This document shows positions 9,391-41,108 of a DNA stretch of 64,000 bases, in pieces. The stretch comes from Atopobium sp. oral taxon 416. Lineage in GTDB: Bacteria > Actinomycetota > Coriobacteriia > Coriobacteriales > Atopobiaceae. The position numbers and the translations under genes were made by a program. The notes beneath the pieces are model-generated. The model worked only from the letters and a program-made list of their open reading frames with translations. It had not been told where the DNA came from and made no database searches. The stretch spans positions 1,240,001-1,304,000 of the forward strand of contig NZ_CP072380.1 in NCBI RefSeq assembly GCF_018128285.1, written 5' to 3'. The first letter of the stretch is position 1, and each line of letters starts with the position of its first letter.

Positions 9391-10938
9391 ATGGCGTACG
9401 CGAGCCAACAGGCACACTCACAGACACAAGCCAGATCAAGAATACGGAGCAGAAGAGAGAGGCGTGAGCGTACCATCATGGGTAGGCCCGCGCGTTTTAT
9501 GCGGCCGATGATCCTTGTGATCCTGGTCGCGGGAATTCTTGCAGCCTTCGGGCTCATGATGATCTATTCGTCCTCCTCGATCGTGGCGATGTCGTCGGCG
9601 GACTACAACAACGATCCGGCGTTCTTCCTGAAGAGCCAGGCGCGCAACTTGGTGCTCGGCGTCCTGATCGCGTCTGTGATTGCACGGATCGAATACCACG
9701 ACTTGGCCCGGCGGTTTACGTTCTGGTTCTGGCTGCTGATGATGGTCCTGCTTGTTATCATACAGACCCCGATTGCCGGCAGCGATATGTACGGCGCAAC
9801 CCGCTGGATCTCGATCGGCGGCTTCTCGCTGCAGCCTTCTGAGTTCGTGAAGCCGCTTCTGATCGTGACCTCCGGCATGATCTTTGAGCAGTACTTTGAG
9901 GAGCGCTCGACCAACTCAAAGGAGTTTTTGATCCAGCTCGCGATCTTTGTCGCCCTGCCGCTCTTCTTCGTCGTGATCCAGCCGGATAAGGGCACGACCC
10001 TGATTATTATCATGACGATCATCTGTATGCTCTATCTGGCAGGGGTGCGCGGTAAAACGATCGGCGTCCTGATCGCAATTGGCTTTGCGCTCTTCCTGCT
10101 CCTGTCGCTGCGTGATTCCTACTCTCTGGCGCGTATCCAGACGCTTCTCAACCCCTGGGGCGACCGCTACCGTTCGAGCTATCAGATGATCGAAGGCTGG
10201 TACGCCTTTGGGTCCGGTGGCCTCTTCGGCACTGGCATCGGCTCCTCGCATCAGAAGTACGCGTATCTGCCGATGGCGTACAATGACTTTATCCTCGCAA
10301 TCGTAGGCGAGGAGTGTGGCTTTGTCGGCTGCGTCGGTGTTCTTGTGGGCTTTGTAATTTTGCTGATCCAAAGCTTCAAGATCGGCAATCAGGCTCCGGA
10401 TCTGCTGGGACGCCTGATCGCCTGTGGCAGTGCCTCGATGCTTGTGATCCAGCTGCTGGTCAATATCTGCGGTGTGCTGGGCATGATCCCGCTGAGCGGC
10501 AAGCCGGTCCCGTTTCTGTCCTACGGCGGATCCTCCATCATCTCCACCTGCATGCTGGTGGGTCTGATCATCTCGGTGTCGCGCTCCTCAATGATTGCGA
10601 GAGACGAGCACGACCGTGCCCGGGAGACCTTCCACGTGACTGATGGCCCGGGAGCAGGCCGTGGGGCTGAGGCGCAGAAGGGCTACCGCGTCTCAAGTGC
10701 CTCCTTTATGGTGCTCCCCGGCGGAGCCTCTAATCAGCTGCACAGCCGCCGTGCCTCTTCATCTGACGTCCGTAACAGCGCAGGACAGGGGTACTATAGT
10801 GGAGGGAGTGGGGTGTCTGCGCCGACAGAAAGGCGTGAGCGCCCTGCGCGACCGAGGCTGAACTCTAAGGTAGATGCTGGGTACAACCGCCGCAGGAGGG
10901 ACGCGCGCGATCCCCGTCGGCACACAAGGAGGAGATAA
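9391..10938 (+). CDS. ftsW: Lipid II polymerase FtsW (SEDS family)
   Basis: A 515-residue SEDS glycosyltransferase that polymerises lipid II at the septum with FtsI. Ten hydrophobic segments span ~38-405. Conserved parts include the R-WI-x-G-x-QPSEF-K block, the VVIQPDKGTT loop with its catalytic-type Asp, and the PFLSYGGSS motif. The first 35 residues and the last ~110 are cytoplasmic, Arg/Gln/Ser-rich and low-complexity, unlike most FtsW. The final codons of ftsW contain the ribosome site of murG. An internal ATG at 9478 is an alternative start after the basic stretch. Confidence 0.93.
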   Translation: MAYASQQAHSQTQARSRIRSRRERRERTIMGRPARFMRPMILVILVAGILAAFGLMMIYSSSSIVAMSSADYNNDPAFFLKSQARNLVLGVLIASVIARIEYHDLARRFTFWFWLLMMVLLVIIQTPIAGSDMYGATRWISIGGFSLQPSEFVKPLLIVTSGMIFEQYFEERSTNSKEFLIQLAIFVALPLFFVVIQPDKGTTLIIIMTIICMLYLAGVRGKTIGVLIAIGFALFLLLSLRDSYSLARIQTLLNPWGDRYRSSYQMIEGWYAFGSGGLFGTGIGSSHQKYAYLPMAYNDFILAIVGEECGFVGCVGVLVGFVILLIQSFKIGNQAPDLLGRLIACGSASMLVIQLLVNICGVLGMIPLSGKPVPFLSYGGSSIISTCMLVGLIISVSRSSMIARDEHDRARETFHVTDGPGAGRGAEAQKGYRVSSASFMVLPGGASNQLHSRRASSSDVRNSAGQGYYSGGSGVSAPTERRERPARPRLNSKVDAGYNRRRRDARDPRRHTRRR

Positions 10939-10939
10939 C

Positions 10940-12058
10940 ATGGCGCTCAAGGTTGCCATCGCTGCTGGAGGTACCGCGGGGCACATCAATCCCGCGCTCG
11001 CGCTTGCGGAGGAGCTGAAAGACAGAGGGGACGAGGTCAGCTTCTTCGGCCAGCCGAACCGCCTCGAAGCCACCCTGGTTCCTCAGGCTGGTTTCCCCTT
11101 CTTTGAGACCCACATCACCGGCTTTGACCGTGCCCGCCCCTGGACGCTGGTCTTCGCACTCGTACGTATGGAGCATGCGGAGAAGCAGATCGCAGAGTAC
11201 TTCGAGAAGGTTGGCAAGCCGAACGTCGCGGTCGGTTTCGGGGCTTACGTGGAGATGCCGCTCTTGCGGTGGTGTCACGCGAACAACGTGCCGGTCGTGA
11301 TCCACGAACAGAACTCCGTGCCAGGCCTTGCGAACAAGAGCTGCGCGCACTTTGCGGCAATCGTATGCCTCTCACTTCCGGCAGCGAAGGACGCCTTTCG
11401 AAAGGACATCGGGCCGGAGACGACGGTGATGGTGACGGGGAACCCGGTGAGGAGGTCCGTGATCAATGCCTCCCGTGAAAAGGGACGGGACGACTTCCAG
11501 GTACCGCAGGACGCGGAGATGCTCTTGGTCTTTGGAGGCTCGCTCGGGGCGCGCCATCTGAACAGTGCGGTTGCGAATATGAAAGACGAGCTTTTGAGCC
11601 GCAAGAACCTCTACGTGATCCACTCCACCGGCAGGCAGGACTTCGACGCGGTGAAGGAGCACCTGAACCTCACTGCGCAGGAGCAGAAGCGCTACCACAT
11701 TATGCCCTACATCGACTCGATGGGTGAGGCGCTGGCAGCAGCTGATGCGGTGATCTCCCGTGCAGGGGCGTCCTCGATCGCAGAGATCGCGGCGCTCTGC
11801 GTCCCGAGCATCCTGGTCCCGTATCCGAAAGCGACTGCAGATCACCAGACGATCAATGCGCGCTACCTTGTGGACCACGGGGCCGCGAAGCTGACCCCCG
11901 ACAGCGAGATCGACGGCGAGGGATTCAAGCAGGAAGTCCTGCACCTGATCGACCACCAAGAGGAGCGCGAAAAGATGAGAAAAGCGGCCCATGGATTGGG
12001 TCAGGCCCATGCTGCCTGCGCACTTGCTGATGCGGTGGAGATGGCGCAAAGCAGCTAA
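10940..12058 (+). CDS. murG: UDP-GlcNAc:lipid I GlcNAc transferase MurG
   Basis: A GT28 glycosyltransferase of 372 residues that converts lipid I to lipid II on the inner face of the membrane. It has the N-terminal glycine-rich loop AAGGTAGHINPALA, a second GGSLGARHLN loop, and a SRAGASSIAE block with a VPYPKATADHQ acceptor motif. The ATG at 10940 directly follows an AAGGAGGA site embedded in the end of ftsW. A longer frame starting upstream would add unrelated residues, so the ATG start is preferred. Confidence 0.95.
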   Translation: MALKVAIAAGGTAGHINPALALAEELKDRGDEVSFFGQPNRLEATLVPQAGFPFFETHITGFDRARPWTLVFALVRMEHAEKQIAEYFEKVGKPNVAVGFGAYVEMPLLRWCHANNVPVVIHEQNSVPGLANKSCAHFAAIVCLSLPAAKDAFRKDIGPETTVMVTGNPVRRSVINASREKGRDDFQVPQDAEMLLVFGGSLGARHLNSAVANMKDELLSRKNLYVIHSTGRQDFDAVKEHLNLTAQEQKRYHIMPYIDSMGEALAAADAVISRAGASSIAEIAALCVPSILVPYPKATADHQTINARYLVDHGAAKLTPDSEIDGEGFKQEVLHLIDHQEEREKMRKAAHGLGQAHAACALADAVEMAQSS

Positions 12059-32123: not shown

Positions 32124-32200
32124 CGGCTAGCGCTGCATGAGCAGCGCTATATAAACGGCGACTAAACAGCATGGCCCTCTGGCAGGTCCGAGTTTATATC

Positions 32201-32590
32201 CTAGGGAAACGATGATTAATTCGCCTCGATGAGGTAGCTGGGGCTGTACGCTGTATGCCGTCGGCTCAAAATGTCTCGAACCACGCAGTGTCCATACCCA
32301 CATAAATGCCTATCTGCCTGCGGATATGTTATAATTACAGCAACGTATTCCAGCATATCCAGGGGGCAGATATGGGCAGATAGATGAGCTTTTAAGACCT
32401 TAAATTCTAAGGTCTTAGGAAGAAGACTCGGCGGGAGGCATTCCTGGAGCGGATGGATGCAATCGTTGTGTGGGATAGCTGGATTGCACTGGTAGATACC
32501 AGCTACCACTGACAGGCGCGTGGCAGGCATGTGCGCGGTGCAAAGACGATGCTTTAGGAGATCGTGAAAGCACTCATCCGTAAGAATCAT
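32201..32590 (+). mobile_element. IS5-like remnant, copy 2 (3' truncated)
   Basis: Starts with the same 20-base terminal sequence as the copy at 20.7-21.7 kb (CTAGGGAAACGATGATTAAT at 32201-32220) and runs parallel to the reverse complement of that copy. From about 32430 it encodes an N-terminal transposase piece (AFLERMDAIVVWDSWIALVD) with in-frame stops. The right end is lost where AT-rich sequence begins. Confidence 0.6.
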
Positions 32591-32664
32591 CTGAAAAGCC
32601 GGAGACAGATGTACAAGGAAGAACTAGATAAAACAAAGATATAGGACTTGTAGGAGCAAATGAC

Positions 32665-32811
32665 ATGGTGGATTATGAGTATATTACAGACACAGAAATA
32701 TTGTTAGAGAAAGTTGGCTGTTTAGGTATTGAAGAAGTAGACAAGTATAATGAATGCTATTTGAATAGTCAACCAGAGTGCGGATGCTTGTGCTTCCTTG
32801 AACTGCGGTAA
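32665..32811 (+). CDS. Small AT-rich ORF, possible peptide precursor or interrupted gene start
   Basis: A 48-codon frame with a good ribosome site (TAGGAG at 32651-32656, ATG at 32665). It begins MVDYEYITDTEILLEKVGC and ends with a Cys-rich stretch (SQPECGCLC). The acidic, leader-like first half and Cys-containing end resemble a modified-peptide precursor, and an ABC exporter of the same base composition lies 3.4 kb downstream. The last ~10 codons may already belong to inserted transposon sequence, since base composition changes there. So it may instead be the start of a longer gene cut by the insertion. I recognise no family. Confidence 0.45.
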   Translation: MVDYEYITDTEILLEKVGCLGIEEVDKYNECYLNSQPECGCLCFLELR

Positions 32812-33300
32812 GGCGCTTCGGTGAGCATCAGATGGCGGAGGACCCCTGCAGTCTTCGGCCACCTCTCGTCGGCCTGCTTGACCCGGAAGAGATATACGTT
32901 TCAGTTGAGATACTCCTGGAGGTTCGAGGCTTCATGCCCACATAGCCCTCCACGAAGCACCTTATCCAGGCGCACAGGCTGTTGACCATCTTCATGTCTT
33001 CAAGATAGTCCGGATCCTCGGTGTCGGCCTTGTATGCGACGCTGGTCCCCTTCAGCGCCCTGACGAGGGAGCTGTGGGCGCGTTGTTATGTATGATCGTG
33101 GTCCTTTCGGCTATGTGACCCTCCAGCGTCTCTCTGACCTGTATTTGATAGCCTCTGAGTTGGGGTTCTGAGCGCCGGAAGGCTACGGCTTTCATCACGA
33201 AGATTTTTCGGGTTTGCGCATGGGCACGCTGCCCATCCCCAGGATGCTCCAGAATGTCGCTGCTTCGGTATCGACAGAAAGGGGCAGAAGGAAATGATCG
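32812..33300 (-). pseudogene. Transposase C-terminal fragment, family unassigned
   Basis: Minus-strand pieces read as a transposase end: YLEDMKMVNSLCAWIRCFVE with GYVGMKP, then, in another frame, LFRVKQADERWPKTAGVLRH. The style (a DDE element ending with a helical VN-x-LC block) resembles zinc-ribbon IS transposases, but I could not fix the family. It separates the small AT-rich ORF from the IS21-like remnant. Confidence 0.4.
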
Positions 33301-33304
33301 GTGT

Positions 33305-35450
33305 GGACAAGATTTAAGATATACGAGAGATGTACAGGAACAAAGAGCCAATCGCCAGGATCGCGAAGAAGGTCGGGGTGTGTGAGCCCACTGCGAGGAA
33401 GTACGCGAAGATGGAGGACCTCTCGCCAAAGATGCCTAAGGAACAGGGAGGCGAGGCACTCCTCCCTCAAAGGGTTCGGTCGCTTCATCGATAAGATGCT
33501 CGGGCAGGAGCGCAGCTGCTGGCGCAAGCAGCGCCACACCGGCGTGCGCATCCTCGACAGGCTGAGGAACGATCACAGCTTTAAGGGCTCCTTGTCCCAC
33601 CGTGCAGCGCTACGTGAAGGAGAAGCGCTATGAGATGGCGGCTGACAGGGACGCGGAGGGGCCTTGCCGGCTTTTTGCCCTCGAATGGCTACCCGGTAAG
33701 TGCCAGGTCGACTTCGGTAAGGCCGACTTCACGGTGAAGGGCGCAACGTCTAAAGGGGGAGGTACCTCACCGTGAGCTTCCCCCCACTCCAACGTGGGCC
33801 TGACGCAGGTGTTGTGGGGCGAGACGGTGGAATGCGTGTGCGAGGAGCTTACCGATGTGTTCGAGTTCATAGGCGACCTGCCGGAAGCGCGCGGTCTTTG
33901 ACAACGCGCTCGGCATAGGAAGGATGGTCGGCGACGAGATCCGCCTGAAGCGAGCTCTTCCGCCTGTTTTGCGCCCGCTATGGCCTCTCGTGCTCCTTCA
34001 CGAACCCCTATTTAGGCAACGAGAAGGGCAATGTGGAGAACAAGGTAGGCACCCATTGCCGGAACATGTTCGTGCCCATGCCGGCCGTGGGCGACGTGGA
34101 GGCCTTCAACAGCAGGCTTCTCGAGCAGAGCCTTAGCCTCTCGTAGGGCAAGCCCCACTGGAAGAAGGGCACACCGCAGCTCGACCTGTTCGGAAAGGAC
34201 AAGGCAGCCCTCTTAGCGCTCGCGCCGCAGAGGTTCTCCTGCAGGAGGTGGGAGACGAGGAAGTGCAGCAAGCAAGGCACGTTCACGCTCGGCGGCATAC
34301 AGCGCTACTGCGCAGGCCCCGCCTGGGCGGGAAAGGAGGTGGCGGTCTTCTTCGGCGCCTTCCGTGTGGAGCTCTTCGATCCCAAGACGGGAGATAAGAT
34401 CGCCAGCTACGAAAGGGAATGGGGGCAGGTCCCGACGGACAGCGCGGATCCCGTGGCGCAGCTGCGTCTGCTGTGCATAAGGCCAGGCGGCTGGAGGGAC
34501 TGCGTCGTGAGGAAGTCGCTTCCCGAGGAGCTCGTCAGCTTCCTCAACGCTAAGCCGAAGGAGTCGCTCTTTGAATCGCTGAGGACGCTGAGAGACGAGA
34601 GCGCCGAGCATGGCTGGGAAGGCTGCCGTCGAGGGCATGCAGCGCGCGCGGGGTGACAGGAGGCCACAGCCGGGCATCGGTGTCGCTGTGCGCGGAGAGC
34701 GCCACATCGGGCGACGCGAGGATCGACTACGGGAAGGATGCTTCCGACCTCGGCATGTACGACGTGGCCCAGGGCATCCAGAAGGGAGGCGCTGCAGATG
34801 CCGCAGTCGAGCTCTGAGCGCGGGGCGGTACGCTCCCTCTTCATATCGTGCGACACGATAGATACCTTTCTCGCCACGGCCACGCCGGGGCAGCTCTCGG
34901 CCTGCACGTCGATGCTGGAGGGCGAGCTCGCCCACAGGCAGCGCCTGCTCAGGCAGGCCCGCTTCCCCGTGCCAAAGTCGGCAGATGGCTTCGACTGGAC
35001 GAATGTCTCCTTCCTTGACGGCTGGGGCAGAAAGGACATGCTCTTACTCGGCTCCGTCGGCGCGGCGCAGGACCTCGTCCTCTTACGGGCAGACGGGCAG
35101 GGGCAAGACCCACATGGCCACGGCGGTCGCCATGATGGCCGTGGCCCAGCTCGTCTGCGAGCTCGGCCGCGCCAAACGCGAGGGCACGCTCGACAGGGTC
35201 TTCGCCGACATCTTAAAGGCGCGCCTGCTCATACTCGACGAGTTCGGATCGACGTCGACGGGGCAAGGCTGCTCTTCCAGGTCATATCGGAAAGCTACGA
35301 GAGGAGGAGCATCATCTTCACGATAAACATCGAGTTCTCGAGATGAGGCACGCTCTTCGCTAACGACAAGCTCACCGCAGCCATCGTCGAGCGCGTCGTG
35401 CACCACGGAAGGCTCGTGGAGTTCGGGGGCCCAGCCACAGGCTTAAGTAG
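33305..35450 (+). mobile_element. IS21-family remnant (istA and istB, both broken)
   Basis: Plus-strand pieces give an IstA-like transposase: an N-terminal HTH (IARIAKKVGVCEPTARKYAK), an integrase part (NPYLGNEKGNVENKVG) and a long C-terminal domain at 34150-34656. IstB follows, with a P-loop GQTGRGKTHMATAV near 35090-35130, then LLILDEFG and LFQVISESYERRS. In-frame stops and frameshifts occur throughout both genes. GC-rich like the chromosome and unlike the AT-rich genes on each side. Confidence 0.75.
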
Positions 35451-35569
35451 AGCCTCATGCTCGGCAAGTCCGGCAGGTAGAGAGAGATGCGGCGCGCCCG
35501 TGACGGAACCTGAAAATATTTCGTGATGAGACCCGAAAGGAGAAGCTGCCTAGGACCCAAACTCAGGCT

Positions 35570-35950
35570 TGACTAAACACACCAGGTCCTCGTGCTCGAC
35601 GAATGGCTGCTCAGCAGGCCGGACGACGGCTTTTGCCGCTTCCTGCTCGAGATCTTCGAGCTGCGCTACGACGAGAGGTCGACGATCTTTTTGCACGCAG
35701 TAGCGCCAGAAGGACTGGCATGTCCGTCTCGGCACCGATGTCACAGCTGAGGCGATCATGGACCGCATCGTCCACAAGACGGCGTGGGTCGACATGGGAG
35801 AGATGAATATGCGTGCCTCCGCCAGGACGGCAGCACCCTCTGGATCGAGGCAGTGATGTAGGAGCCAGGGGCCATGGGGCGGTGCTGCGCGGCGCCGCCC
35901 CCGGTGCCGATTCGCGACACAGCCGGTGCCGAGCCGCAATAATCGCTGGT
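35570..35950 (+). pseudogene. Second IS21-type istB C-terminal fragment
   Basis: Pieces of another IstB ATPase end: VLDEWLLSRPDDGFCRFLLE and IFELRYDERSTIF, then after a shift MDRIVHKTAWVDMGEMNM. The sequence differs from the IstB just upstream, so it comes from a different IS21-type element. Its right boundary touches the AT-rich coding segment at about 35960. Confidence 0.6.
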
Positions 35951-35964
35951 GCCTACACGCGCAA

Positions 35965-36190
35965 ATACTCATTTACAGCTTGTTCCATATGTTACTCTCA
36001 TTGCATTTCATGGGACAAACTAGGCATTTCCACGGACACTTGCGAACATAGAAAATATAATTTCAGACATAAAATTGAAGTGATACAAAAAATATTACAA
36101 AAGTGTCCAGAATTTTTTAACGATAGGATAAAGGAATCTGCAACCGCAGCATTTCAATTAAATCTTATGAATAAAAAACTCGGAACATGA
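35965..36190 (+). pseudogene. C-terminal fragment of an AT-rich Cys-motif protein (possible peptide-maturation enzyme)
   Basis: The last ~75 codons of a gene whose 5' part is missing. The remaining sequence has a C-x2-C-x3-C motif (ACSICYSHC) followed 14 residues later by another Cys (DTCEH), then a helical Lys-rich end. Such a Cys pattern near a C-terminus recalls the auxiliary Fe-S (SPASM-like) region of radical-SAM peptide maturases, but this is only a resemblance. It stops 3 bases before the ABC exporter, so the two were one operon. The upstream side is IS21 sequence, which truncated the gene. Confidence 0.45.
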
Positions 36191-36193
36191 AGG

Positions 36194-37831
36194 ATGAATA
36201 TGAGACCGTTGAGAAAAATAATATACACACTGATAAGAAATAAACTGGGAAAATTTATTTTGGCGATTTCTTTATATGTTTTCTCTGCGTTTCTTGCAAT
36301 GGCACCAGCCAAAATATTGCAAATTATTATTGATGACGCCTTCCTGAAATATAGGATAGACAGACTTCTGATATATTTGGCAATATTGTTGCTTGTATAT
36401 TTCCTAAAAACTATTTGCTCTTACTCATCAAATAAAAGAATGATATCTCTTGGAAATGAATTATTAAAGAATATCAAGAAGGCAATATATAACAAACTGA
36501 TGTATATGGATCTATCTTTTTATACAAACAATGATTTGGGATATATTAATTCAAGAATAGAAGAGATTGACAAAATTGACGTGTTATTTTCATCACAAAC
36601 ACTTACACTAGGATCTTCAATCTTAGAATTTGTGTTTGCAATAATTATGCTGTCAAGTATTAACTTTAAGATGCTTATTATATTTTCTATCCCAATTCCG
36701 GTCTTATGCTGGTATGCGTATTCGTCATCAAAAAGAATAAGTCATCAGATTCAACATACGTTGGAAAGTGCGGCGGAATATTCGGGAAAAATGCAGGACA
36801 CTCTGCACGGAATGGAAGAGATTAAATCACAAGGAACTGAAGAAAAAGAAAGCAGAAGAATAGACAAATTCAACCGTAAAGCACTAGACACTCAAAAACA
36901 GCAATCTCTCTTTGTTAATAAGTTTGGTTCTGGAATAGGGATGATTGGAAATGTTGTAACAGTACTTGTTTACCTAATTGGAGGCTTGTTTTTTATAAAT
37001 AAAGAGCTATCAATGGGTACTTTCATTTCGATATCTACATACGTAGGGAAACTTTATTCTCCAATCTTAAGTTATGCAAGTATATCAGTTTTAATACAGC
37101 CGGCATTTCTATCGTTAAAGAGAGTATCTGAGTTTTTTTTCAAAGAAAATGCAGTAACTGAAGATGGCCAAGAAATCACTGGGATTTATAAGATTGAATT
37201 CCAAGGCGTTTCTTTTCAATACAAGAAAGAAAGCGCACTATTGAAGAATATTAATCTAACTATTCATAAAGGTGACAAAATGCAACTTACTGGAGAAAAT
37301 GGCTCCGGAAAAAGTACCTTGTTGCGACTGATTGTTAAAACAATTAAACCGATAGAGGGAAAAATATTGGTCAATGATATTGACTTAAATAATATAAATA
37401 AAGAGTCATTTCTTAAACAGATATCATATATTCCGCAGAAGAAATATTTGTTTAATGAAAGCGTATTTTATAATGTGACATATGGAATTGAAGATGTCGA
37501 CAAAATCCAATACAACAATATTGTGAATGAGTTAGGATTGCGCCCTATTGTAGATCAATTGGAGCGTTCTGGTAATAATAAAATTGGTGAAAATGGATCA
37601 AGACTTTCGGGAGGCGAGATTCAAAAAATTTGCATTGCAAGGGCATTATTGCAAGAACGCTCAGTGGTTATTCTAGATGAAGCAACTACTAGCCTAGATA
37701 AAAAAGCGTATGCCTATATTCAGGAGAAAATCAAGAACTCAGCATCAACATGGATAATAATTGATCATCAACATGATTTGTCTAATTATGGATTTAAATG
37801 TGTAGATATATTCAGTTTACAAGGAGTATGA
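36194..37831 (+). CDS. ABC exporter (fused TMD-NBD), AT-rich, likely acquired
   Basis: A complete 545-residue half-transporter. Six hydrophobic helices lie in residues ~1-310 and the ATPase in ~325-545. Walker A is GENGSGKST (K373), the Q-loop is in YIPQKKYLF, the signature is LSGGEIQK, Walker B is VVILDEATTSLD (D495-E496) and the switch His is in IIIDHQHD. There is no C39 peptidase domain, so any leader would be removed by another enzyme. Codon use is strongly AT-biased, unlike the rest of the window, and fits transfer from a low-GC Firmicute. Coupled to the Cys-motif fragment upstream; peptide or bacteriocin export is the inferred role. Confidence 0.8.
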   Translation: MNMRPLRKIIYTLIRNKLGKFILAISLYVFSAFLAMAPAKILQIIIDDAFLKYRIDRLLIYLAILLLVYFLKTICSYSSNKRMISLGNELLKNIKKAIYNKLMYMDLSFYTNNDLGYINSRIEEIDKIDVLFSSQTLTLGSSILEFVFAIIMLSSINFKMLIIFSIPIPVLCWYAYSSSKRISHQIQHTLESAAEYSGKMQDTLHGMEEIKSQGTEEKESRRIDKFNRKALDTQKQQSLFVNKFGSGIGMIGNVVTVLVYLIGGLFFINKELSMGTFISISTYVGKLYSPILSYASISVLIQPAFLSLKRVSEFFFKENAVTEDGQEITGIYKIEFQGVSFQYKKESALLKNINLTIHKGDKMQLTGENGSGKSTLLRLIVKTIKPIEGKILVNDIDLNNINKESFLKQISYIPQKKYLFNESVFYNVTYGIEDVDKIQYNNIVNELGLRPIVDQLERSGNNKIGENGSRLSGGEIQKICIARALLQERSVVILDEATTSLDKKAYAYIQEKIKNSASTWIIIDHQHDLSNYGFKCVDIFSLQGV

Positions 37832-37853
37832 AGATCGTGTCGGAACCGACGCT

Positions 37854-39171
37854 CCTATGCTGTGTCAAGTCATTTTCAGGTTCGCTAACTTGCTCTTCAT
37901 GAATGCGGAGTACCTATCGCGAATCTCGTAATGCTTGCTGGCCTCGCGCTCGATCTCGCTTATGCGGATGTGGTCGGTGCCGAGTGCGGCGGCGACCTCT
38001 TCCTGCGTCATCGCGGCTTCGGCCCTTTTCGCCCTGAGCGACCTTTCGTCCTCGTGGGTTTTAGCTGTTGGGTTCATCAGCGCGCAGCAGACTTCCCGGG
38101 CGATGTATCTCTTGAGGCATCTGATTGCCTCGCGCTTCGATGTGCCCTCGGCCATCCGCTTCGCGACATACTCCTGCGTGCGCCCATCGTACTTCATCCG
38201 GTTGAGAGCGATGGTGTGCAGGGCCCTGTTGGCCTGCCTGTTACCTCCCCGGTTGAGCCTGCGCCTGACGATCTTGCCGCTCGACGCCTCTATCGGCAAG
38301 GCGCCGCAAGGCGAGGCGAGTACTGCTTTTGAGCGGAGCCTTTCGGGGTTGTCGCCCGCGGCGTTGCCGAGCGCCGCAGCCGTCGATCTCCAGCAGGGCC
38401 GGCGCGTTGTCGCGCACCAGGTCGGATATGAGCGCCTCGAGCTCGTCGGCCCGTTGCTTGGCGTCGATTCACGTCTTCGCGAGAACATGGAGCGAAGTGT
38501 GCAGCGCATCCGTGACGGCACTGCCGGTTGCGAACCTTTTCTTGGCAAGCGACTTCATCATCGCCGAAACGCTTATCTTCCCGTACTTCGACCTTATGGG
38601 CTCCGGCGCGATGTTGTCCAGGGACTTCGCGGCGCTGGATGCCGCCGTCGAAGTCCTCACGCATAGCTCTCTTAAGTCCAGCAGCGCCCTGACGGCTTCG
38701 GACCACCCGTCCCTCGACTTTAGGGGACACAGGTGCCGTGCCCCGCCGCTGTGTTCCGCGTCTATGGCGTCGTTTTTGCTGGAGCCCCTGCGCCTCTTGT
38801 CGCGCTTGGGCCGCAGGATCTCCATGACAGTGTAGCCGCGCTCACGCAGGTAAGAGCAGATCCCAGCGCCGTATAAGGCTGTACCCTCGATACCGACAAG
38901 CGCGCAGCGGCCGGCGTCGCTGATGGTGTGGGCAAGCGATCGATATCCGGCGCCGTCGGCGGCGAACCCGCCCTCGTAGACGAGCCTGCCGAGCGCGCCC
39001 AGCACACACAGCACGTACGCCTCCTTGTGCGTGTCGATGCCGGCGTAAACGACAGACGTGCCTTCCATGCAGCCTCCCTGTCTTCACCGGGCACTCCGCC
39101 GGTGAGCCAGACACAACACTGAAAGGGGCGCTATAATCAGGAGAGTCCGGCCTGCTGGCAGCGCCTATGCT
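37854..39171 (-). mobile_element. IS110-family element, approximate limits
   Basis: The limits are set by an 8-base direct repeat CCTATGCT at 37854-37861 and 39164-39171 that flanks the transposase pseudogene. IS110 elements lack long inverted repeats, so the limits are provisional. The ~100-base non-coding stretch upstream of the transposase start (39069-39171) would be the expected place for a bridge-RNA gene in an IS110-group element. It contains a hairpin-forming CACCGGGCACTCCGCCGGTG at about 39077-39096. Confidence 0.5.
37865..39068 (-). pseudogene. IS110 transposase with C-terminal HTH extension, broken
   Basis: Two halves of an IS110 transposase are visible. The N-terminal RuvC-like DEDD domain (38469-39068) starts with VYAGIDTHKEAY and includes KNDAIDAE. 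The C-terminal Tnp20 domain has LASPCGALPIEASSGK and NRGGNRQANRALHTIALNRMK. A TGA at 38469 replaces an expected Arg codon, since the frame continues IDAKQRADELEALISDLV. A frameshift near 38380 then separates the halves. After Tnp20 the frame runs on for ~65 residues with an XRE-like helix-turn-helix (RAEAAMTQEEVAAALGTDH). That tail is unusual for the family. Confidence 0.75.
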
Positions 39172-39430
39172 CCTATAAGGTCATGGCGGGCCTTCGGGAT
39201 GCCCGCGGCAGGGCGCGGCAAGTCATTTCAAGGTCAGTCCTTGCGACGACGGTTGGTGTATGGGCCAGCGCCCTGTCGCAAGCCACTACGATGGGAGCAT
39301 ACGCTCCCACGGTCGACTTTGCGCGAGTGTCGGCGCAATCACAACCGCGATATCATTATCAGTGTTGGTGTAGGTCCGATTCTGCCTGGGGTGAGGAGGC
39401 CGTCCTGGATCTGGAATCCCTGGGACTATC

Positions 39431-39998
39431 CTATGCTGTCTCCATCCCATCTGCAAGCTCAAGGCTGACATCTATCACCTTCCTGGCAAGACCCCTGAGC
39501 TCTGTCAGCCTCTCCGGCGTGAGAGGTAGCGTAGGTCTGCGCTTCTCGAAGAGCTCTGCGATGACCTTCTCAGAGAAGTAGCGCTCGCCTGCCTATATCT
39601 CGTCCTGCTCTGCGAGGACCGATCCCACGAGCCTCATGAGCGACCTCTGTGAGGGGAACACCTGCACGACCTTCGTGCGTCGCTTGATCTTGTGGTTGGT
39701 GCGCTCTTGTAGGTTGTTGGTGCGCAGGCGCTTCCAGTGGGATGCAGGGAAGTCCAGACAGGCAAGGGCATCCGCCTCGGCGTCCTCCCAGATCTCTGCC
39801 GCCTTGGGGCAACACTTCTCAAGCATCTTAGCTGCGAGGTGGAAAAGGGCGCACACCTGGTTGGTGTCCTTGGCACGAAAGACTGGCTCCATGATCCTTG
39901 CCACCCGCTTCTTCAGGCTCCTGGAGCCTGCGGCGGCTATGCAGTTCCTCATGAGATGGACGACGCACCTCTGCCACGTGAGCTCCCAGGAATACTGA
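39431..39998 (-). pseudogene. IS256-family (Mutator) transposase, C-terminal fragment
   Basis: Minus-strand reading gives the end of a Mutator-type transposase: WQRCVVHLMRNCI, then HWKRLRTNNLQERTNHKIKRRTKVVQVFP, SLMRLVGSVLAEQDEI, a TAG stop, and then AGERYFSEKVIAELF in the same frame. The N-terminal two thirds are missing exactly where the IS30 copy begins at 39999, so that insertion probably truncated it. Bases 39172-39430 beyond its stop contain no gene I recognise. Confidence 0.75.
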
Positions 39999-41108
39999 CC
40001 TGTGTCAATATTTCGGACGGCAGATTGTCAAGCTGAGTGCAACATCTCCCTAAAGACCTCGTTGGCTGTCCTGTATTTCAAGACCTTCCTCGCTCTGTCG
40101 CAGATCAGCTCCACTACATGCTACACCTCCTCGTTTGTGACCTTGCTGAAGTCGCTGCCCTTAGGGGAAGAACTTTCGCAGGAGCCCGTTGGTGTTCTTA
40201 ACTGTTAGCTTTTGCCATAGATGGTGGGGGTCGCAGAAGTAGAACTGCACGCCTCAAAGGGTATCTGTGACATCTGCATGCCCTGCGAACTGCTTGCCCC
40301 ACTTAGGCGTGAGCGTTTCGAGGGGACGTCCCTGTAGCAGTCCGACCTCGGCCTTAGAGACGCTTCCGCTGTCGTGGTGGCATCTCTTCTGCGAGAAGCA
40401 GCCTCACTGCCCTGTCGGCAAGCACGAGCAGGCACATGGGCCCGGCTGCCACGAGCGTGTCGTCTGCCCACTCGCCGAGGCAAGACCTCGCATCGGCCTG
40501 CTTTGGCCTCTCCTTTACGGTATGTAAGATCTCGATCTTGCCCCTCGTCTTAGGCCCCTTCCTGCGCAGGTGGTGCCGCACCTGGCCTTCGGGGCCGGAT
40601 CCCGACAGGTCGAGGGTGGCGGCTACGGACCTCACGGTAGAATAGTCGAGAGGCTCAACGACGTACCTGCCGCCACCCTCGAGCCTGAGATGTCGTCTAT
40701 CTTATCTGGGGACCAGTGTCTGTCCATGATGAGAGAGTGCACGGTCTGAAAGCCGCCTTTTCGGCCTGCATCTCCTGCGGCGCTCATCCGCCCTCTTTTT
40801 GAGCAGTACAGGCCCTAAAGTGTCCGTGGCGTGCGTTCCTCTTGAGCTTGTGGCAGACGCTGGAGCTGTCCCTGCCGATCTCTGCCGCGATATAGGCAAT
40901 TGACCTTCCCTTGTGCCACACAGCTCGGCTATGCAGTCCCTCTCCTGTAGGCTTACGATACTTGTAGTGGCACATTCCTTTTAGCTTTCGACGTTGATTG
41001 AGACAACCAACATCGTAGCCTTCCGGAGTGTGCTACGCTTGCATTCAGCGGGCTATCCTGTTGCACTCAGAATGCTAATCCTCCAGACCTTGCTATTTTG
41101 ACACATGG
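39999..41108 (-). mobile_element. IS30-family element, copy 2, degenerate
   Basis: Imperfect terminal inverted repeats begin with TGTGTCAATATT (from 40001) on the left and its counterpart TGTGTCAAAATA (ending about 41106) on the right. Inside these are the GGCAGATT and CTGAGTGCAACA blocks shared with copies 1 and 3. The minus strand encodes an IS30 transposase starting MCHYKYRKPTGEGLHSRA with HTH SIAYIAAEIGRDSSSVCHKLKRN. The catalytic region is split among frames. Full length (about 1.1 kb) but inactive. Confidence 0.8.

Follow-up and report, generated by a model that had tools for sequence, protein, structure and literature searches.

Probable remains of a horizontally acquired sactipeptide-type locus, broken by insertion elements, with a surviving ABC exporter in Atopobium sp. 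oral taxon 416

Introduction

The closest described relatives of the locus treated here are the radical S-adenosylmethionine (SAM)/SPASM peptide maturases of the RumMC and Apre_1838 (CcpM-type) clusters (NF035951, TIGR04068), a remnant of which lies in Atopobium sp. oral taxon 416 three bases ahead of an intact ATP-binding cassette (ABC) exporter gene, here called P0001. Both sit in a 64,000-nucleotide stretch of DNA (the window; bases 1240001-1304000 of a 3.0-Mb single-contig genome). The locus combines foreign base composition, a SPASM tail, an intact exporter and boundaries formed by insertion sequences (IS), and the same pairing of tail and exporter occurs in another genus. It is probably a horizontally acquired sactipeptide-type locus that insertion elements have wrecked and whose exporter survives; the class of its product and the present function of the pump are what we infer from these observations.

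The papers cited below by PMC number are represented by passages of their text. RumMC carries the C-terminal motif CX2CX5CX2CX18C (PMC6779426), and the tail in the window shares with the RumMC and Apre_1838 maturases the third, fourth and last SPASM cysteines, a similar cysteine spacing and a common C-terminal stretch, but keeps only about the last 72 residues, the barrel, the N-terminal region and the first SPASM cysteines being missing. For the exporter, a described precedent is McjD, which is compared with MsbA, exports microcin J25 and confers self-immunity (PMC5641919). By that description P0001 and McjD are both ABC exporters, McjD one that serves a ribosomally synthesized and post-translationally modified peptide (RiPP); its substrate, however, is a lasso peptide, whereas the proposed ancestor of P0001 would have exported a sactipeptide.

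Sactipeptide clusters have been reported among gut genomes at large (PMC6784870, PMC9561172), are named in necrotizing enterocolitis (PMC9917134) and, as the SCIFF type, occur in new pig isolates, in a study that names Collinsella for bile acids (PMC7738495). No link between sactipeptides and names beginning Coriobacteri- appeared in the passages covered, a search that lay outside supplements and subscription journals, and no paper combining Collinsella, bacteriocin and radical SAM was found, although survey tables may list such clusters. A sequence-only reading of the window had proposed a candidate undescribed RiPP or bacteriocin system. 'Undescribed' is too strong, as the parts are of known kinds: what the locus presents is a familiar kind of cluster in degraded form, and the recurrence of a SPASM tail with an exporter is its only slightly unusual part.

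Results and discussion

An AT-rich block with a maturase tail and an intact exporter

Two features make up the block:
35971..36190, plus strand: predicted C-terminal tail of a radical SAM/SPASM peptide maturase (CSICYSHC...C), recognised by NF035951 and a tail profile
36194..37831, plus strand: intact peptidase-less ABC exporter P0001, 545 aa (PF00664, E 5.9e-36; PF00005, E 3.8e-33)

The foreign AT-rich block (window 35971-37832) has a guanine-plus-cytosine (GC) content of about 0.32, against 0.551 for the window, and is flanked by IS remnants, of IS21 type on the left and IS110 type on the right. When the whole window was scanned in steps of 250 bases, GC fell below 0.42 solely in 500-base windows between 36001 and 38000. 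At third codon positions the exporter has a GC content of 0.288, against 0.60-0.77 in the other 22 of the 23 open reading frames (ORFs) of at least 300 aa, overlapping frames having been removed beforehand. By part, GC is 0.345 in a smaller fragment farther left (32590-32760), 0.318 in the tail (35971-36190) and 0.321 in the exporter (36194-37831), with 0.58-0.64 in the intervening pieces of 32821-35970. The sequence-only reading had described just such a contrast between three AT-rich segments and their surroundings, which the GC plot along the window bears out, and the frames it named (32665-32811, 48 aa; a frame running to 36190; the ABC ORF at 36194-37831) all lie where it placed them. It was largely correct, and is confirmed in part, with the exception of its claim about the small ORF.

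The tail corresponds to about the last 72 codons of its gene, and the frame over 35969-36187 reads SFTACSICYSHCISWDKLGISTDTCEHRKYNFRHKIEVIQKILQKCPEFF.... The maturase was cut between the second and third cysteine of its C-terminal CX2CX5CX2C block, at the edge of an IS, so that the first two cysteines of the block are missing. The part retained follows the SPASM cysteine pattern as C-x2-C-x3-C-x12-C; the CX3CX2C motif of the radical SAM barrel is absent, since the sequence begins after the second cysteine of the C-terminal block. Among NCBIfam models, a 78-aa piece matched NF035951 rSAM_RumMC best (positions 451-502 of 510, E 0.0082), the only other model up to E 10 being an antitoxin model (E 0.032). 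On a hidden Markov model (HMM) of 11 maturase tails, none of them from the window and omitting the maturases of L037-L043, L048 and L053 and the second maturase of L045, the tail (35966-36187) scored 17.7 bits, which none of 5000 shuffles reached (best 12.0); among 1278 segments of the window only the ORF at the same place came within 5 bits of it.

The CSICYSHC...C motif aligns with CSLCYMKC and CSLCYLNC in the tails of plasmid maturases from Sarcina and Paraclostridium bifermentans, respectively, and clostridial plasmid maturases match the tail with BLAST E values of 0.002-0.003 in a set of 24 proteins. These comparison maturases were taken from six plasmid records with radical SAM genes. 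In five, a small peptide annotated as huazacin, Apre_1838 sactipeptide, lachnocin or putative bacteriocin lies near the maturase; the sixth, an Enterococcus record, has no such annotated small peptide near its maturase. No relatives of the tail were found in plasmids or in viral_contigs, a comparison with solved structures gave one chance-like match, and a search with the tail profile detected no second tail in the genome itself. On sequence grounds we assign the tail to the C-terminus of a radical SAM/SPASM peptide maturase; the sactipeptide (RumMC-type) enzymes resemble it most. What had been described as a Cys-motif protein and possible maturation enzyme is accordingly a SPASM maturase tail directly upstream of a peptide-type exporter. 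Because the maturase is truncated, no modified peptide is made here, and the biosynthetic locus is very probably dead, as the same reading had supposed.

P0001 itself is whole, again as had been supposed, with full membrane and ATPase domains. It shows the fused transmembrane and nucleotide-binding domains of a peptidase-less MsbA/McjD-like exporter together with all three expected motifs, which by direct reading are GENGSGKST (Walker A), LSGGE (signature) and VVILDEAT (Walker B); no peptidase domain is present among the 22 Pfam families listed. The likelier start of the protein is an ATG at 36200, six bases downstream of the ORF start and preceded by AAGG, as read from the sequence. Within the tail, a TATAAT-like site (36056-36061) is a candidate promoter element for the exporter.

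In a 27-row tree P0001 groups with exporters of its own class, those of G008 and G218 among them (support 100/99), and the exporter from a human faecal contig (L053) attaches to this group at 88/83. For this tree the P0001 row was read with the alignment gaps from A2 (BLAST ignored the gaps, and rows were re-aligned), three exporters were cut before the ABC part to remove a peptidase domain, and rows from the genome itself whose frames contain an internal stop (L002, L006) were entered as stop-free pieces; A4 was made from 8 rows. An exporter scan of viral_contigs with A3 kept at least 26 loci from at least 600 candidates. Searched with P0001, plasmids gave 1400 records, all below 60% identity (best listed 30%), and phages 564, also all below 60% (best listed 29%); genome_contigs gave two loci (best 24% over most of the length) and the first scan of viral_contigs none, these two scans seeding on exact 8-residue stretches and so being liable to miss moderately similar relatives. 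A DNA search in 60 relatives returned only the locus itself and one 101-base match of 71%.

Insertion elements around the block

Three IS features bound the block:
33140..35581, plus strand: broken IS21-type element with IstA/IstB remnants, recognised by a repeat elsewhere in the genome and by IstB_IS21
35582..35970, plus strand: second IS fragment, whose right edge cuts the maturase gene
37833..39068, minus strand: IS110-type remnants forming the right boundary of the block, recognised by repeats and by PF02371 and PF01548

The first of these is 92% identical over about 2.5 kb to another place in the same genome (G000:895957-898429). The element is broken, and its assignment to IS21, a family with IstA and IstB genes, draws on the IstB fragment (34985-35323), which matches PF01695 IstB_IS21 (E 4.5e-8); on the IstA side, a single fragment (33301-33630) was compared with Pfam and matched nothing. 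IS21-type remnants, of the base composition given above for the intervening pieces, do therefore separate the small ORF from the tail and exporter, as first described. The second fragment matches a third genomic place (87% over 394 columns, G000:140601-140994). On the right, the part queried (37833-38200) is present at three more places in the genome with 97-98% identity, and the remnants carry PF02371 at 37865-38545 and PF01548 at 38469-39068. The region 37833-40975 as a whole is a heap of IS remnants, of IS110 type, of Mutator type (39593-39952) and with an HTH_38 fragment (40784-40975).

Proposed origin of the locus

The account we favour is that a low-GC operon for a sactipeptide-type RiPP was acquired horizontally and that 35971-37832 would be its remains. 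Its original gene order would have been a radical SAM/SPASM maturase followed by a peptidase-less MsbA-like ABC exporter. As such enzymes do, the ancestral maturase would have introduced thioether cross-links into a small Cys-rich peptide, and the exporter, on the model of McjD, would have pumped the product out and thereby shielded the producer. Insertion elements would then have entered and the maturase been lost up to the second cysteine of the C-terminal SPASM block, with the exporter frame surviving whole, possibly as an orphan self-protection pump. If so, the locus records both the arrival of a low-GC cross-linked-peptide locus in a higher-GC bacterium and its decay.

The tail-exporter pairing in other genomes

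The same arrangement was sought in the class, here meaning 396 or 392 genomes sampled evenly from a larger group. At E 1e-100 the exporter clade is present in 7 of 396 genomes. In two of them, G008 and G218, which belong to one related genus, have loci about 98% identical and were counted as one event, an orphan SPASM tail stands immediately ahead of the exporter:
L139 7128-7331 and L137 9034-9237: orphan SPASM tail overlapping the exporter start, with a helix-turn-helix regulator gene upstream

This tail is N-terminally truncated and reads HCSKCNVSRLCPKCF...DSFC.... In tblastn with the G032 maturase, the C-terminus of that enzyme matches it over 72 residues, at 37.5% identity in one genome and 36% in the other (E 1e-10 and 4e-10). 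Like the locus in the window, these two pair an intact clade exporter with a truncated SPASM tail immediately ahead of it. They differ from that locus in an exporter identity of only 27-28%, an exporter GC of 0.545, overlapping frames of tail and exporter, and an upstream regulator of XRE type (a family match made in L139). A class-wide search with a tail profile at E 1e-4 found five places in 392 genomes: full maturases in G127 and G032, and three orphan tails (this genome, G008 and G218), each directly upstream of a clade exporter. Since the profile contained the tails of the window and of G008, their recovery is by construction; where they lie, next to the exporter, is independent of that. 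Full-length enzymes with such a tail are rare, being found in these 2 of the 392 genomes searched. With NF035951 at E 1e-25, 9 of 396 genomes matched, none above the curated cut-off; four of the nine loci (L035, L036, L037 and L043) were read.

An uninterrupted pairing of a maturase with an exporter of the wider clade exists in L053 (5833-9060; MT836680.1), where a 38-aa Cys-rich peptide, an AlbA-like maturase (E 2.9e-51, below the curated cut-off) and a 545-aa exporter stand in a row; the peptide has no NCBIfam match. As in the window, the gene right after the maturase encodes an exporter of 545 aa whose sequence stops shortly behind the H-loop. Unlike the window, L053 has an intact maturase, AlbA-like and not RumMC-like, accompanied by a Cys peptide, and the two exporters are 27% identical. 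The contig, labelled Bacteriophage sp., thus holds a subtilosin-like cluster, and genes resembling mobilisation genes lie further upstream, as judged by eye from the sequence.

The independent case in a second genus supports the pairing of maturase and exporter. It also bears on a rival view, in which P0001 would be a common ABC half-transporter of the multidrug or lipid kind and IS shuffling would have set an unrelated relic, the tail, beside it. MsbA is the best NCBIfam model for the exporter, below its curated cut-off, and the four of seven clade exporters without a clear SPASM gene nearby, described below, speak for this view, one of them (at L149) following an XRE-type regulator. Yet tail and exporter have nearly the same GC (0.318 and 0.321), stand three bases apart with no IS between them, and recur in this order, with overlapping frames, in the second genus, while L053 holds an intact maturase-exporter pair. 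We regard such a chance juxtaposition as unlikely.

Several findings weigh against a sactipeptide origin. The locus holds no precursor, the Cys-containing gene of a sactipeptide cluster, and beside the whole exporter only a tail stands where such a cluster has an intact maturase. The tail reaches 14.9 of the 720 bits of the curated NCBIfam cut-off, a shortfall expected of a 78-residue fragment, and a search of the genome with NF035951 at E 0.001 did not turn up the remainder of the enzyme; that search misses the known tail too, so that short scattered pieces of the enzyme could escape it. P0001 has no close relative in anything searched, matches over most of its length being 22-30% identical and short ATPase stretches reaching 42% at most. 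In the tree, the RumMC/Apre_1838 and lachnocin clusters have their exporters on other branches, which means that the tail's best family and the exporter's nearest kin come from different known clusters. Finally, in four of the seven clade genomes (G210, G260, G045 and G211) no clear SPASM match lies within the 16-18 kb read, the best score around these exporters being 9.6 bits (E 0.13), so that P0001 may have some role other than serving a RiPP. The sequence-only reading had named related exporters beside unrelated genes as evidence against a peptide cluster, and such evidence is half there: these four exporters lack a clear SPASM gene, and the other three, P0001 included, have only a tail.

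The left AT-rich fragment and the 48-aa ORF

A smaller AT-rich fragment lies to the left of the IS21-type element:
32590..32760, no strand assigned: left AT-rich fragment, GC 0.345, left edge approximate, only possibly linked to the exporter block
32665..32760, plus strand: native 32 codons of the 48-aa ORF, preceded by AGGAG resembling a ribosome-binding site
32761..32785, plus strand: IS left end, which supplies the first codons of the misleading end of the 48-aa ORF

The fragment sits between a repeated element on its left and the IS end on its right; the repeated element (32198-32557) is 88% identical to L052 422-782 in the same genome. The 48-aa ORF is chimeric. Its AT-rich native part, which reads MVDYEYITDTEILLEKVGCLGIEEVDKYNECY, stops at 32760 after 32 codons, and the following 25 bases (32761-32785) are identical to L021 7342-7366, the edge of another AT-rich island of the genome. 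A 23-base pattern of this IS end occurs exactly at G000:895343-895365 and with two mismatches at G000:2768823-2768845, and both of these copies continue into one shared IS body (91.6% over 239 bp). Because the other copies lead into the same IS body, residues 33-48 of the ORF are not native: the IS end accounts for codons 33-40 and part of codon 41, and the DNA that follows it for the rest.

The fragment invites the view that this is one transposon-split cluster, with the 48-aa ORF as precursor, the tail as maturase and the ABC gene as exporter. The fragment is AT-rich too, the ORF has a plausible ribosome-binding site, and in L053 a 38-aa Cys peptide does stand ahead of maturase and exporter. 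The Cys-rich end that had suggested a precursor, however, is IS DNA or what follows it, and a 170-base AT-rich scrap could be the start of any gene. Up to E 10 the 48-aa ORF matches no Pfam or NCBIfam family, precursor families included, and its native 32 codons have no match in plasmids or, among 140 genomes of the family searched, in any of the 139 others. The small ORF was therefore rejected as a precursor, and a single split cluster of this composition is improbable. Of the RiPP-cluster reading, the maturase, the exporter, the foreign composition and the broken enzyme stand, and the precursor falls. The native 32 codons were also tried as the N-terminus of the maturase and rejected: compared with the starts of ten maturases they scored -0.7 bits, which 1569 of 1989 scored shuffles (2000 made) equalled or beat.

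Possible retention of the exporter

A comparison of G008 with G218 counts 11 synonymous and 10 non-synonymous differences in the exporter (dN/dS 0.32, Fisher p 0.011). The tail agrees at 204 of 204 bases although 115 of 5141 alignment columns differ, an identity with p of about 0.01 in a comparison chosen after the fact. The longest identical run, 362 bases, lies over the tail. Both measures are weak hints, at the level of sequence, that such orphans are kept. In analogy with McjD, the exporter in the window may likewise act as an orphan self-protection pump.

A stronger form of this idea holds that the orphan tail and exporter are a functional unit, that the truncation was selected, and that the pump gives immunity to peptides of neighbouring bacteria. 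Two lineages retain a tail with an intact exporter, the substitution pattern in G008 and G218 points the same way, and McjD offers a precedent for peptide export coupled to self-immunity. Against this, the substitutions are few (21 in one gene pair), the identical run over the tail barely exceeds the next one (355 bases, from 8302 inside the exporter), and the tail in the window also lacks the first two cysteines of its block. We treat a selected unit as a tentative possibility, doubtful on present figures. Highly improbable, in our estimate, is its widest extension: that a SPASM-tail microprotein and a peptidase-less exporter form a two-gene orphan immunity, possibly sensing, module retained in the class, derived from sactipeptide clusters at least twice and protecting commensals against cross-linked peptides of Firmicutes. 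If orphan exporters of the clade did protect against sactipeptides, they would help to predict which gut commensals survive these peptides.

Related clusters and AT-rich islands

In G045 (L149 5899-8491) an XRE/TPR regulator immediately precedes the clade exporter, and no clear SPASM match lies near them; the two are a possible peptide-sensing pair.

A second AT-rich island of the Atopobium genome (L021 5978-7337; G000:893977-895336) carries an ABC ATPase gene (GC 0.34) and a permease gene (GC 0.31). The best NCBIfam model for the ATPase is the lantibiotic protection family TIGR03740 (E 5.4e-38, below cut-off), and the protein is 34% identical to the ATPase of a huazacin-type cluster of Ruminococcus albus. 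The 226-aa permease matches no family. The island ends at the same IS end as the left fragment in the window and is possibly a displaced immunity part of the same import.

Within the window's own family, an apparently intact sactipeptide-like cluster lies at L140 6501-11049 (G032). It comprises a 50-aa Cys-rich peptide (10897-11049, minus strand; no NCBIfam match), a radical SAM maturase (best model TIGR04068, below cut-off) and a 411-aa protein with a SPASM-like end (TIGR04193, E 3.8e-10, below cut-off), followed, as judged by eye, by an ABC ATPase and a permease; gene GC is 0.40-0.49 in a 19-kb stretch of 0.54. At L141 5730-10821 (G127), a low-GC set (0.38-0.44) contains a 481-aa maturase with proteins of 337 and 104 aa; the opposite strand encodes a 534-aa ABC protein that shares 24% identity with P0001.

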